From contig NZ_JALSKT010000069.1 in the NCBI RefSeq assembly GCF_026988655.1, positions 1 through 40,242 of the forward strand: a stretch of 40,242 bases of DNA. Reading direction: 5' to 3'. This DNA comes from Sulfurimonas sp. Lineage in GTDB: Bacteria; Campylobacterota; Campylobacteria; Campylobacterales; Sulfurimonadaceae. The stretch's first letter is position 1. Every line of letters begins with the position of its first letter. The notes below the pieces were generated by a model. That model was given only the letters and a program-made list of their open reading frames with translations, was not told the DNA's origin and did no database searches. Position numbers and translations under genes: made by a program. Shown here one piece after another: positions 19,338 through 23,490 of the stretch.

Positions 19338-21203
19338 ATGAAAAAGATACTTATCTTGATGACCTTGGGAAAAACTTTTCTTCTAGGCTCAGAGAATTTT
19401 GATGCACTTTTGACCTCTTATGAAGAGGAGTCAAGTGGATCAAAGATAACAAAAAGTGAGTCTGCTGGTTTTGTTGATCTCTATACTCGCAAAGACCTTG
19501 ATAGAATGCAGGCTCGAACTTTAGGAGATATAACAAAGCTCTTTACTATTCCTTTTATCTCAAGAACTTCTCTCAACACTACACTCTTTTCCAAGCCTTC
19601 ACAAAATGGAGTCCCTACTTCAGGAGTGAGGATTTATATTAATGATCATGATATTACTCCATCAGCTTATAGAAGTGGGGCGATGATTTGTGACAGCATA
19701 ACACTTGATTTTATTGACTATGTTGAAGTATATAGAAGTAGTGCTTCTATAGAGTTCGGTAACGAACCTTCAACCGTTGTTATAAAGCTCTACACAAAGC
19801 GTCCAGCAAAAGAGGAGGGAAGTAAAATTCGCTTAACGGGAGACAACAAGGGAAGTGCTTATCTTAGTGCTTACAGTGCAAAAACACTCACTGGTGAGAT
19901 GAGCTATCTGGCATATGCAAATGTGAATGAGATACAAAGAGATGTTTACTACAATCAAGGTGCAGCACTGAAGAGTGACTCCTCAAATAGAAACTTTTAT
20001 GCAAACCTAAACTATAGAAGCTGGACATTTGAGATAGGTGGTTTTACAAGTAGAGGGGACTCACTCTTGGGCTTAGGGGTAAATGTCACACCTGAGACAA
20101 CTAAGCGTGATGTGAATTATCTTTATGGGCATATAACAAAAAAGTTTGATAACGGAGTACGAGCGCAAGTAAGTGTAGATTCTATAGTTACAGATGCACA
20201 GATGATAGATAGAGGTGGTATTATTACTGCTGGGTATGGAAGTGTTGAGAGTTACAAGTTTAATAATAGCGAGAATGTCTATTCACTTATTCTTGATAAA
20301 ACATTTAAAACATCTACAAACAGCCTCTATATAGGAGGGTTTGTGAAGCATAAAACAGTAGCGGTAGATGAGACTTTTGATGGAGCAAGCACAGATTTTT
20401 CTACAAACTATACACTCTACTCACTCTTTTTGGAAAACAAGTATGATATAGATACAACCACAACACTAGTAGCATCACTCAAGGGAGATACATATCGCTA
20501 TGAGACAAAGAGCATAAAAGATACAAATGAGTATATTTTTCGTTTAGGTGCTATAAAAAATATAGATAAGTTTCAGATAAAAGCATTTTATACACGGACA
20601 TACTATACAGCACCACTCTCTGTACTTTATAGTGGTGATAGTGATACCCTGTATAAAACAAATGGGAATCTAAACTTTTCACAGCCAACACTCTACTCTT
20701 TAGGTGTTGCTTATCGAGGAAAAAAACATTTTTTCAACATCAGAAGTAGCTACATTGTACTCTCGAACCCTATTAAGTATGACATGCAAGAGGGCTTTGT
20801 TAATAAAAATCAAACAAACTACACACAGTATGAAGCGTCATATACATATAAGTATACTAAAGATAGTAAAATTTCACTTGATGCTTATTATGGACAAAGA
20901 GAAGACTTAGAAGAGTATTCTGCTCCTTATGGCGGTCATATTGTGGCATATAATAGTTATGGGGATTTTGACCTATTTAATCTTTTGGATTATAGAGCTG
21001 GCTATAGTAACTTTGGTGTATCTGCGACACCATCATATGATTGGACTTCAAGTATTGTCTATCATGCAACAGAAGATTTGCTATTTGGATTGAAAGGAGA
21101 AAATATTTTAGATAAAGGGTACAAGCAACTCTATAGAGGGCTTGAGTATGGCATAAATGTGTTTGATAGGAAGTTTTGGCTAAATATGGAGTATCAGTTT
21201 TGA
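19338..21203 (+). CDS. TonB-dependent outer-membrane receptor
   Basis: The 621-aa protein has a signal peptide (about residues 1-17), then a plug domain ('LGDITKLF', 'GVRIYINDHDITPSAYRSG', 'IDYVEVYRSSASIEFGN'). A long series of amphipathic beta strands rich in tyrosine and asparagine ends in an aromatic residue ('NMEYQF'), the outer-membrane signature. It is related to ligand-gated receptors for siderophores, cobalamin or other large substrates; the ligand is not readable. It overlaps the next gene by its stop codon and heads a three-gene run with a YfiR-like protein and a GGDEF-EAL protein, suggesting a signalling role besides, or instead of, uptake. Confidence 0.8.
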   Translation: MKKILILMTLGKTFLLGSENFDALLTSYEEESSGSKITKSESAGFVDLYTRKDLDRMQARTLGDITKLFTIPFISRTSLNTTLFSKPSQNGVPTSGVRIYINDHDITPSAYRSGAMICDSITLDFIDYVEVYRSSASIEFGNEPSTVVIKLYTKRPAKEEGSKIRLTGDNKGSAYLSAYSAKTLTGEMSYLAYANVNEIQRDVYYNQGAALKSDSSNRNFYANLNYRSWTFEIGGFTSRGDSLLGLGVNVTPETTKRDVNYLYGHITKKFDNGVRAQVSVDSIVTDAQMIDRGGIITAGYGSVESYKFNNSENVYSLILDKTFKTSTNSLYIGGFVKHKTVAVDETFDGASTDFSTNYTLYSLFLENKYDIDTTTTLVASLKGDTYRYETKSIKDTNEYIFRLGAIKNIDKFQIKAFYTRTYYTAPLSVLYSGDSDTLYKTNGNLNFSQPTLYSLGVAYRGKKHFFNIRSSYIVLSNPIKYDMQEGFVNKNQTNYTQYEASYTYKYTKDSKISLDAYYGQREDLEEYSAPYGGHIVAYNSYGDFDLFNLLDYRAGYSNFGVSATPSYDWTSSIVYHATEDLLFGLKGENILDKGYKQLYRGLEYGINVFDRKFWLNMEYQF

Positions 21204-21622
21204 AGTTTTTTATACTATTATTTATTTTTACAATATCACTTTTTGCATCTGAGCAGTCAGCTGAAAAGAGGGTATATGCTTCTATTTTGAAAGCACTTTT
21301 TCCGGAAAAAACTATAGTTAAGGTTTGGAGTGATAAGAGTGAAAAGGGTGCCCTCTTTAGTAAGCTTGATGGTGTTAGAGTAGTTGCTCAGAAAAAGGAT
21401 GCAGATATCTTAATGATTTTTGGTCCTGAGGATATAGAGAATTGTGATAAGATGATTTTCGCAAATGGCTATCTTGTGTTTCGTAGATCAAAAGGAAAGG
21501 CTATAGGTGGGTTTTACTGGCAAAAAGGAAGGGCAAACCTTACGTTTATTAAGAAAAATTTAGAAAAAGAGGGTATCAGACTTCCTAAAAGTTTAGAAAA
21601 ATATGTAGAAGATGTAGAGTGA
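21200..21622 (+). CDS. Small periplasmic YfiR-like protein (DUF4154-type, tentative)
   Basis: I place the start at TTG 21200, overlapping the receptor stop (TTGA), because GGAG at 21188-21191 lies 8 bases upstream and the product then begins with a clean signal peptide ('MKFFILLFIFTISLFAS'). The mature part of about 120 residues ends with 'AIGGFYWQKGRANLTFIKKN' and 'LEKEGIRLPKSLEKYVE'. That layout resembles the C-terminal region of YfiR/DUF4154 proteins, which sit in the periplasm and restrain a membrane diguanylate cyclase. Position between a receptor and a GGDEF-EAL protein supports this. Family membership is tentative. Confidence 0.5.
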   Translation: MKFFILLFIFTISLFASEQSAEKRVYASILKALFPEKTIVKVWSDKSEKGALFSKLDGVRVVAQKKDADILMIFGPEDIENCDKMIFANGYLVFRRSKGKAIGGFYWQKGRANLTFIKKNLEKEGIRLPKSLEKYVEDVE

Positions 21623-23490
21623 AACAGTTAAATATAATTTACTCCTTTTTTGTTGTGCTACTTCTTTTTGTTTTAGTCTATCTCTATGTGCGTTTAGGAG
21701 ATTTTGAACTACAAGCAAAAAAGAACATAGAGAGTGTAATAATAAAAAACACGAGCTATTTTATAGAGAATGTGGAAAAAAATATAAAACAACATGTTAA
21801 GAGCAATCTGTATAAAAGCTTGAAATCAAATCCTCAATTACGAAAAGAGCTTGAAACAAATATGGGGATGCTTATAACCCCTTCTTTTAAATATATCTAT
21901 GTTCTTTATAGAGATAGTGCTGGAAAGTATCGCTACCTTCTTGATGGAAGTAAGGAGGAAAAGGGTCTCTTTGATATGAAGTTTGACATAGATACTCAAG
22001 CATGGGATAGTGTGTATCTATCTAAAGAGAAAAAAATTGTTACTCAAGATGATGTGAGTAGTATCTGGATTACAACACTTTATCCTATAGTTTATGACGG
22101 GGAGGTGCAGGGTGTTATTGCATTAGATTTTTCAACATCACTTTTTCAGTATATTTCAAAGGTGCTAAGTCCTTTAAAAGATATATTTCTTTATGTTTTT
22201 GTAGCAACATTTTCACTATTAGTAGTTATTCTTTACCAGATGTTTTTACAGTTAAAAACAAAAAGAGAGAGTATCACTGACCCACTTACTAAGGCATATA
22301 ATAGAGTTTACTTAAGAGATCTAGTTGAAAAAATAAATCTTTACAATTATGATGTTGCTATGCTTGATCTTGATCATTTCAAAAAAGTGAATGACAATTT
22401 TGGCCACGATATGGGAGATTATGTTCTTGTAAATTTTGTAAAACTTCTTCAAAAGAGTATACGAAGTAAAGATATTATTATTCGTTTTGGAGGGGAGGAG
22501 TTTTTACTTTTTCTCTATAAAGAGAAGAAAAAAGAGTCTCAGGCTACAGAGGTAATGCAAAGAGTGCTAAAAACAGTATCTCAATACAACTTTGTATATG
22601 AAAACAGTAGCTTACAGATAACATGTTCGGCTGGTTTAGTCAAGGAGGCATTTAAGTATAACAGTGTTCAGCAAGTTATAAAAAAAGCGGATGAGAGACT
22701 CTATAGTGCGAAGAGTAGAGGGAGAAATAGAATAGTAGAGAGTGATATCTCAGCTTGTGTAGATAGACTCTCTTTAGGGGCTGTAAAACAAGCACTTGAT
22801 GAGGAAAGGCTACTCTGCCATTTTCAACCGATTTTTACACTCAGTACAAAAAAGATAGCAAAATATGAAGCACTTGTACGCTTAAGAGGAGAGGGTGAAA
22901 AGCTCTACTACCCAAATCAGTTCTTAGATACAATTGAGGGGACAAATGTCTATAGAGATTTAACAAAAAATGTTTTAGAGATAGTTTTTGAAAAAATTGC
23001 AGAACATCAGATAGCTATGAGTATGAATCTAAATCTCTCAGATATTATTGATAATTCTATTTATGAAATGCTTATAAAAGAACTAGAAGCAAGTAAATCT
23101 CTTGCTCAGTTTTTAACGATAGAGCTTTTAGAGTATGAGTCGCTTGCAAACGACATATTGCTAGATAGGATTGTTGCTATAAAATCATATGGTGTAAAAA
23201 TAGCACTTGATGATTTTGGATCGGGCTATTCAAACTTCTCAATATTTGAGAACTTGCCTATTGATATTATTAAAATTGATGGATCTCTTGTAAAAAATAT
23301 AGACAATTCAAAAACCTCTTATATCATTGTAGAGTCAATTGCAAGATTAGCAAAAAGATTAGGATTGGTAGTAATAGCAGAGTTTGTTCATAGTAAAGCA
23401 GTATTAGATGTACTTGAAGAGTTAGATGTGCGATGCGGTCAGGGATTCTATCTTGGTAAACCAGATATTTTAATGCCGACAGGGCAGTGA
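21619..23490 (+). CDS. Membrane GGDEF-EAL c-di-GMP turnover protein with periplasmic sensor
   Basis: The 623-aa protein starts at GTG 21619, overlapping the previous stop by 4 bases. A membrane helix (about 5-25), a periplasmic sensor domain of roughly 150 residues and a second helix (about 187-210) precede the enzymatic part. The GGDEF domain has an intact active site GGEEF (291-295). The EAL domain keeps E-A-L (417-419), the paired aspartates of DDFGSGYS (531-538) and K552. Its later motif reads AEFVH (587-591) rather than the usual AEGVE, keeping the first glutamate. Both synthesis and breakdown of c-di-GMP look possible. The 3' end overlaps xth on the opposite strand by 43 bases. Confidence 0.85.
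   Translation: MKQLNIIYSFFVVLLLFVLVYLYVRLGDFELQAKKNIESVIIKNTSYFIENVEKNIKQHVKSNLYKSLKSNPQLRKELETNMGMLITPSFKYIYVLYRDSAGKYRYLLDGSKEEKGLFDMKFDIDTQAWDSVYLSKEKKIVTQDDVSSIWITTLYPIVYDGEVQGVIALDFSTSLFQYISKVLSPLKDIFLYVFVATFSLLVVILYQMFLQLKTKRESITDPLTKAYNRVYLRDLVEKINLYNYDVAMLDLDHFKKVNDNFGHDMGDYVLVNFVKLLQKSIRSKDIIIRFGGEEFLLFLYKEKKKESQATEVMQRVLKTVSQYNFVYENSSLQITCSAGLVKEAFKYNSVQQVIKKADERLYSAKSRGRNRIVESDISACVDRLSLGAVKQALDEERLLCHFQPIFTLSTKKIAKYEALVRLRGEGEKLYYPNQFLDTIEGTNVYRDLTKNVLEIVFEKIAEHQIAMSMNLNLSDIIDNSIYEMLIKELEASKSLAQFLTIELLEYESLANDILLDRIVAIKSYGVKIALDDFGSGYSNFSIFENLPIDIIKIDGSLVKNIDNSKTSYIIVESIARLAKRLGLVVIAEFVHSKAVLDVLEELDVRCGQGFYLGKPDILMPTGQ

Follow-up and report, generated by a model that had tools for sequence, protein, structure and literature searches.

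Positions 19338 to 23490 of a 40,242-nucleotide stretch of Sulfurimonas sp. DNA (contig NZ_JALSKT010000069.1, from a host assembly of 1.97 Mb; the whole stretch is called the window) hold a cluster of three genes, referred to here as the module. It encodes a TonB-dependent receptor, a small periplasmic protein and an inner-membrane GGDEF-EAL protein of the kind that acts on cyclic di-GMP (c-di-GMP). All three genes are on the + strand with a 4-base overlap at each of the two junctions, in agreement with a first-pass annotation in which the three genes overlapped by 4 bases or fewer. The same annotation named the receptor and described the GGDEF-EAL protein as a membrane protein with a periplasmic sensor, and Pfam and structural models gave the same assignments. 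The features of the module are as follows.

19338-21203, + strand: TonB-dependent receptor gene, 621 amino acids (signal peptide; Pfam Plug; family profile matching BtuB and CirA)
19398-19475, + strand: conserved N-terminal segment from signal peptide to plug, consensus LL..Y...s.LS..TK.E..G (family conservation)
19452-19763, + strand: plug domain PF07715, receptor residues 39-142 (Pfam)
21200-21203, + strand: TTGA, overlap of receptor stop and small-gene start (sequence)
21200-21622, + strand: small periplasmic protein predicted to have the YfiR fold, 140 amino acids, TTG start, signal peptide (AlphaFold2, YfiR structural matches, hhalign)
21503-21547, + strand: small-family signature IGGFYWQKGRANLTF, consensus iGaFFWqKGRPNIvF (family alignment)
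21619-21622, + strand: GTGA, overlap of small-gene stop and GGDEF-EAL-gene start (sequence)
21619-23490, + strand: inner-membrane Cache-GGDEF-EAL protein, 623 amino acids, GTG start (Pfam GGDEF and EAL)
21649-22245, + strand: membrane helix, predicted periplasmic Cache-like sensor, membrane helix (AlphaFold2 model with a predicted local distance difference test, pLDDT, of 91.9; structural matches)
22273-22731, + strand: GGDEF domain; GGEEF motif and RxxD-type inhibitory site, RSKD (Pfam; motifs from sequence)
22780-23463, + strand: EAL domain with the usual catalytic motifs EAL, DDFG, KID, AE and QGF (Pfam; motifs from sequence)

An AlphaFold2 model of the small protein (pLDDT 92.5; predicted template modelling score 0.81) was compared with structures in the PDB. 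YfiR chains matched the model with Z scores of 8.4-9.5 over 119-122 residues (root mean square deviation 3.5-3.9; ~9% identity in the structural alignment), and lobes of substrate-binding proteins were interspersed with them (3lkv, Z 9.6; 3lft, 9.4; 6k1x, 9.2). The Z ranking reached 8.1 at rank 17 and then dropped across a gap to 6.3. In the published YfiR analysis, 3LFT and 3LKV are also given as the closest DALI neighbours of YfiR itself (PMC4655355). Foldseek searches with the model were borderline (E 1e-3 to 8e-3, best 1.2e-3). When a profile of 104 small proteins was aligned by hhalign with one of 38 DUF4154 proteins of the phylum, the match extended over residues 4-138 with a probability of 94.1% and a score of 47.7; 60 column shuffles scored at most 16.6 and the reversed profile 14.0. 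Alignment with the divergent DUF4154 subset alone gave a probability of 28%.

The small protein of the window had no Pfam match above the cut-off, DUF4154 (PF13689) included, and none of 36 small-family members matched DUF4154 at E<=1. The host genome likewise had no DUF4154 match above the cut-off, a PDB profile search with the small family returned chance-level matches only, and the NCBIfam scan of the small protein gave a single match at chance level. Thus the resemblance to YfiR noted in the first-pass annotation was found in the fold and in the hhalign link, whereas the DUF4154 profile search was negative. From the structural model, the YfiR fold can be assigned to the small protein. Because the fold match and the hhalign link agree, yet the DUF4154 cut-off was missed, we conclude that it is a distant relative of YfiR that shares the fold and lies outside the curated family.

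Conservation within the small family is concentrated at the C-terminus. At least 60% conservation was observed at 18 of 40 positions in residues 101-140, compared with 3 of 42 in residues 19-60, and the C-terminal conservation is centred on the signature listed above, with G103, K109 and R111 essentially invariant. The conserved partner-binding surface of YfiR is described as mostly C-terminal as well in two reports (PMC4655355, PMC4887326). The window copy contains one cysteine and thus does not match the two conserved cysteine pairs of Pseudomonas aeruginosa YfiR. Two cysteines follow reading-frame residue 22 in 62 of 104 relatives, at positions not equated with those of YfiR. A cysteine at alignment column 65 accompanied by a second near 82-83 was seen in 65 of the 104 members; these may form a disulfide, which would be absent from the window copy.

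Pfam identified a Plug domain in the window receptor (32.9 bits against a cut-off of 23.9) and in 18 of 23 receptor family members. A profile built from these 23 members matched the PDB entries for BtuB (residues 183-578, E 6e-11) and CirA (E 1e-8). Single-sequence Pfam searches detected the barrel in four of the 23, the window receptor not being one of them, and an NCBIfam scan of the receptor gave no match. From these domain matches we conclude that the receptor is of TonB type, with a plug and a TonB-type barrel. No STN signalling domain was found among the 23 members at E<=0.001, Pfam reporting only Plug and TonB barrel. Positions conserved in at least 60% of the family amount to 9/27 in the N-terminal segment, 34/110 in the plug and 60/466 in the barrel. 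The N-terminal segment is conserved to the same level as the plug. We propose it as a candidate contact site for the small protein or for TonB. A tandem pair of module-family receptors precedes one small gene at L088 (contig C21 of genome G037), and the module receptor gene is broken at L156 (G056) and L157 (G380); reading frames resembling an insertion sequence separate the receptor halves at L156.

The third protein was matched by Pfam to GGDEF (122 bits) and EAL (184 bits), and no HAMP domain was found in it by Pfam. The model of its sensor domain most closely resembled crystal structures of WalK (Z 13.4-14.1), and other Cache/PDC domains matched too. A catalytically dead enzyme of the LapD kind was considered for the window copy and dropped because its GGDEF and EAL motifs are both intact. 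GG[DE]EF is present in 84 of 90 GGDEF modules.

The trio recurs as a unit. Relatives of the small protein were identified in 87 of 397 Campylobacterota genomes by single-sequence search, whereas a small-family profile matched 91. From the profile search 99 places in 87 genomes were retained, and five weak hits (E 4e-4 to 8e-4) confined to the N-terminal part of the profile were set aside. We examined 106 loci, comprising the window, 98 genome stretches and seven named loci from metagenome-assembled genomes (MAGs), sources that may overlap; L038, which shares a contig with L082, and L166, a contig-edge fragment with no small gene called, were dropped. A small gene was callable in 105 of the 106. 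The receptor lies directly upstream in 101 of these, an output protein downstream in 99, and both in 98, so that the occurrence of the three genes together across genomes, which the first-pass annotation had proposed to check, was confirmed. The exceptions are L125 and L167, which are apparent orphans; L165 and L039, at contig ends; L115, with a receptor and no adjacent sensor protein; L107, with a sensor protein and no called receptor; and L127, in which the order is enzyme-receptor-small. Among named sources, the small protein has its nearest relatives in Campylobacterota MAGs labelled Sulfurospirillum and Sulfurimonas. Beyond the phylum the family had no plasmid match, and a contig scan with peptides of one sequence only returned eight loci, all with Campylobacterota names.

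Searches of the 397 genomes with the sensor domain yielded 94 matches at E<=8e-41. A small gene is found no more than 300 bp away from 93 of these, and the remaining one belongs to L127, the rearranged copy of the module. Eleven weak matches (E 1e-10 to 9e-6) were without a small gene. Similarly, 92 matches at E<=4e-43 were obtained with the N-terminus plus plug of the receptor, and for 90 of them a small gene is located at most 2 kb away. The two others are also at module loci, one being the tandem second receptor of G037 and the other the frame-interrupted receptor of G056. Weaker receptor matches comprised partial ones at the module loci of G336 (E 6e-30) and G361 (E 3e-25), with the rest at E >=7e-21. 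Strong sensor and receptor-plug matches are therefore exclusive to module loci. Pairwise distances for the receptor, small protein and sensor were correlated (r 0.83-0.89), compared with a maximum of 0.10 after label shuffling. We noted weak sensor matches (E 2e-9 to 9e-6) in frames of ~650-680 amino acids with no small gene nearby in G032, G052, G113, G118, G156, G160, G189, G213 and G339.

The downstream output protein varies. It is a GGDEF-EAL protein at 75 loci, a GGDEF protein without EAL at 15 and a histidine kinase at nine. The window-type sensor domain is carried by eight of the nine module kinases (L117 is without it), and directly 3' of seven of the nine is an EAL-domain gene with a receiver-like start. 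Four of these seven genes were scanned; all four encode response regulator-EAL proteins, three with a PAS domain above the Pfam cut-off. Each of three trees built from 91 modules requires 10 or more changes of output type. Taken together, the sensor, kinase-EAL and tree data lead us to conclude that the front end is under stricter conservation than the type of output, and that this output is in most cases still a c-di-GMP enzyme. At L109 the module kinase is followed by a 963-amino-acid histidine kinase, the N-terminus of which reads like a periplasmic binding protein.

One alternative is that the receptor and the small protein serve import and that the GGDEF-EAL protein is merely co-transcribed with them. 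In its favour, the receptor is a genuine TonB type. Retention of the front end while the output was exchanged argues against it, as do the restriction of strong sensor matches to module loci and the finding, from reading frames and Pfam, that the overlapping cluster contains no inner-membrane transporter gene. We consider an uptake operon improbable.

Genes for DUF4154 proper were found in 36 of the 397 genomes, in 29 of them above the cut-off. Of 50 DUF4154 places 40 were analysed, the nine weakest and one near-duplicate being left out. At least 29 of the 40 have a TonB receptor next to DUF4154, 19 identified by Pfam and 10 by the receptor profile; the neighbours scanned with Pfam had been chosen for size and position, and all 19 from Campylobacterota were positive. 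Many of these places have GGDEF, EAL or kinase genes on the opposite side. DUF4154 and GGDEF are fused in one reading frame at L189 and at L190-L192, the latter three with a receptor-sized gene upstream, which at L190 and L191 Pfam confirmed to be a TonB receptor. Two genomes, G288 and G305, each have a DUF4154-receptor-kinase locus whose kinase bears the window-type sensor domain (E 4e-23 and 4e-24, respectively). The grouping of TonB receptor, DUF4154 and output also occurs at five loci in plasmid records of Sphingobium, Pseudoalteromonas and Indioceanicola; one of the five, L212, has broken receptor frames and an annotated transposase immediately 5' of its YfiR gene.

These loci bear on the possibility that the resemblance of the small protein to YfiR is no more than a common alpha/beta arrangement in two unrelated proteins. 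The lack of DUF4154 matches among the family members, the low identity in the structural alignment and the borderline Foldseek values would fit such a coincidence. The hhalign score is nevertheless far above the shuffles over nearly the full length, a gap is present in the Z ranking, and the genomic setting is that of true DUF4154 genes, with the window-type sensor in two canonical loci. We regard coincidence as very improbable, the least probable of the alternatives considered.

Given the YfiR fold, the hhalign link, the linkage and exclusivity of the three genes, the bridging DUF4154 loci and the exchange of outputs, the operon probably constitutes a three-layer relay from the cell surface to c-di-GMP in which a TonB receptor occupies the place of YfiB. 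According to reports on the Pseudomonas system, YfiN has a periplasmic PAS domain that is bound by YfiR (PMC4655355), and sequestration of YfiR by YfiB releases YfiN (PMC4655355, PMC4887326). By analogy, the small protein would restrain the sensor until it is sequestered by the receptor. The outer-membrane receptor would respond to an external ligand, and possibly also to engagement by TonB. Its state would be carried across the periplasm by the soluble YfiR-fold protein, which is predicted to bind either the periplasmic face of the receptor or the Cache sensor. The GGDEF and EAL domains would then alter c-di-GMP. As judged from YfiR, shuttling of the YfiR-fold protein between receptor and Cache domain is the most likely arrangement. 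The first-pass annotation had read the locus as a receptor/YfiR-like/c-di-GMP module; the fold and the recurrence of the trio support this reading, and the step from receptor to enzyme is inferred.

Besides the missing DUF4154 matches, several points weigh against the relay. Shared operon inheritance alone can yield correlated trees without contact between the proteins. When covariation between proteins was assessed by mutual information across 91 trios (effective depth 58), the 60 top pairs with the small protein included one in the receptor N-terminal segment (2.6 expected) and 19 in the plug (11.0 expected), and at this depth gave no support for N-terminal docking of the receptor to the small protein. 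Visual inspection of the aligned receptor N-termini did not reveal a standard TonB box. Finally, the single-lobe fold is common to ligand-binding proteins, and the small protein might be a ligand carrier.

The last point leads to the main rival, because the YfiR fold equals half of a substrate-binding protein. In a ligand relay, the receptor would import a ligand that the YfiR-fold protein binds and presents to the Cache domain. The matches to lobes of type I substrate-binding proteins fit such a carrier, and Cache domains are commonly ligand-binding, with many ligand-binding examples among the matches to the sensor model. In addition, one report has YfiR binding vitamin B6 or L-Trp with millimolar affinity in the pocket used by YfiB (PMC4887326). 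On the other hand, the small protein is a single lobe and lacks a partner half that could close over a ligand, the sensor is matched best by WalK, and the profile link points to DUF4154. We therefore consider a ligand relay unlikely, and favour sequestration-type signalling through the YfiR-fold protein.

The first-pass annotation had also taken the absence of AAACGCAG from the module as a hint of separate ancestry. This word occurs 19 times in the window, with 0.73 copies expected, and 1207 times in the whole genome (G000) compared with 29 for the backward-read control; these counts suggest a genome-wide signal, of the DNA-uptake type or another. No copy lies within the module. Since the chance of a stretch of this length lacking the word is 0.13, and that of a gap as long as the surrounding one is 0.17, its absence is of little significance. 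The G+C content of the module (0.341) is close to that of the window (0.339), and a separate ancestry was not borne out by either test. The 5' neighbour of the module encodes a molybdopterin-binding protein (Pfam), and the 3' neighbour is a convergent gene on the opposite strand. The 3' end of the GGDEF-EAL gene shares 43 bases (23448-23490) with the convergent minus-strand reading frame.

Detailed knowledge of signalling from outer-membrane nutrient or ligand receptors to the cytoplasm comes mainly from the sigma/anti-sigma route. Searches of the open-licence PubMed Central literature, judged by title and the start of the abstract and with subscription papers outside the scope, turned up no paper that describes a TonB receptor-YfiR unit. 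The component families are known; what sets the module apart as a variant of the YfiBNR kind is how they are combined, how widely this combination occurs in Campylobacterota and that outputs are exchanged. The module looks like a widespread and little-described wire from surface to interior. If the conserved association of TonB receptor, YfiR-fold protein and Cache sensor works as proposed, it offers a testable direct path from a surface receptor to c-di-GMP, gives a function to a family without a Pfam entry and provides an evolutionary setting for YfiBNR. The roughly ninety natural receptor-adaptor-sensor trios can be used for interaction prediction.

YfiBNR (TpbB) of P. aeruginosa resembles the module in combining an outer-membrane protein, a periplasmic YfiR fold and an inner-membrane c-di-GMP enzyme with a periplasmic sensor. 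The module differs in having a TonB-dependent receptor where YfiBNR has the OmpA-like lipoprotein YfiB, and a Cache-GGDEF-EAL protein without HAMP where YfiN is PAS-HAMP-GGDEF. Moreover, its small protein falls below the DUF4154 cut-off and its outputs vary among genomes. The TonB receptor-DUF4154-GGDEF/kinase loci share the three-part architecture and, in two cases, the identical type of sensor domain, but their DUF4154 protein is ~30 amino acids longer, their gene order is variable and their barrel is detected by Pfam. In TonB-dependent transducers of the FecA/FpvA type, a TonB receptor signals across the envelope via an anti-sigma and a sigma factor. The module would likewise use a TonB receptor as the envelope-crossing signaller, but no STN domain was found in 23 of its receptors, and a soluble adaptor and a c-di-GMP enzyme replace the anti-sigma and sigma factors. 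WalK is a Gram-positive kinase with no outer-membrane receptor, in which a Cache-type extracytoplasmic domain, similar in fold to the module sensor, is controlled by the partners YycH and YycI. We tentatively suggest, at somewhat less than even confidence, that receptor, YfiR-fold adaptor and Cache-type sensor represent a second general type of signalling from the cell surface, parallel to the FecA/anti-sigma route, in which a fixed front end drives interchangeable outputs that for the most part feed into c-di-GMP (a GGDEF-EAL protein, a GGDEF protein, or a kinase with a response regulator-EAL protein), and of which YfiBNR would be a derivative with the receptor replaced by a peptidoglycan-binding lipoprotein.

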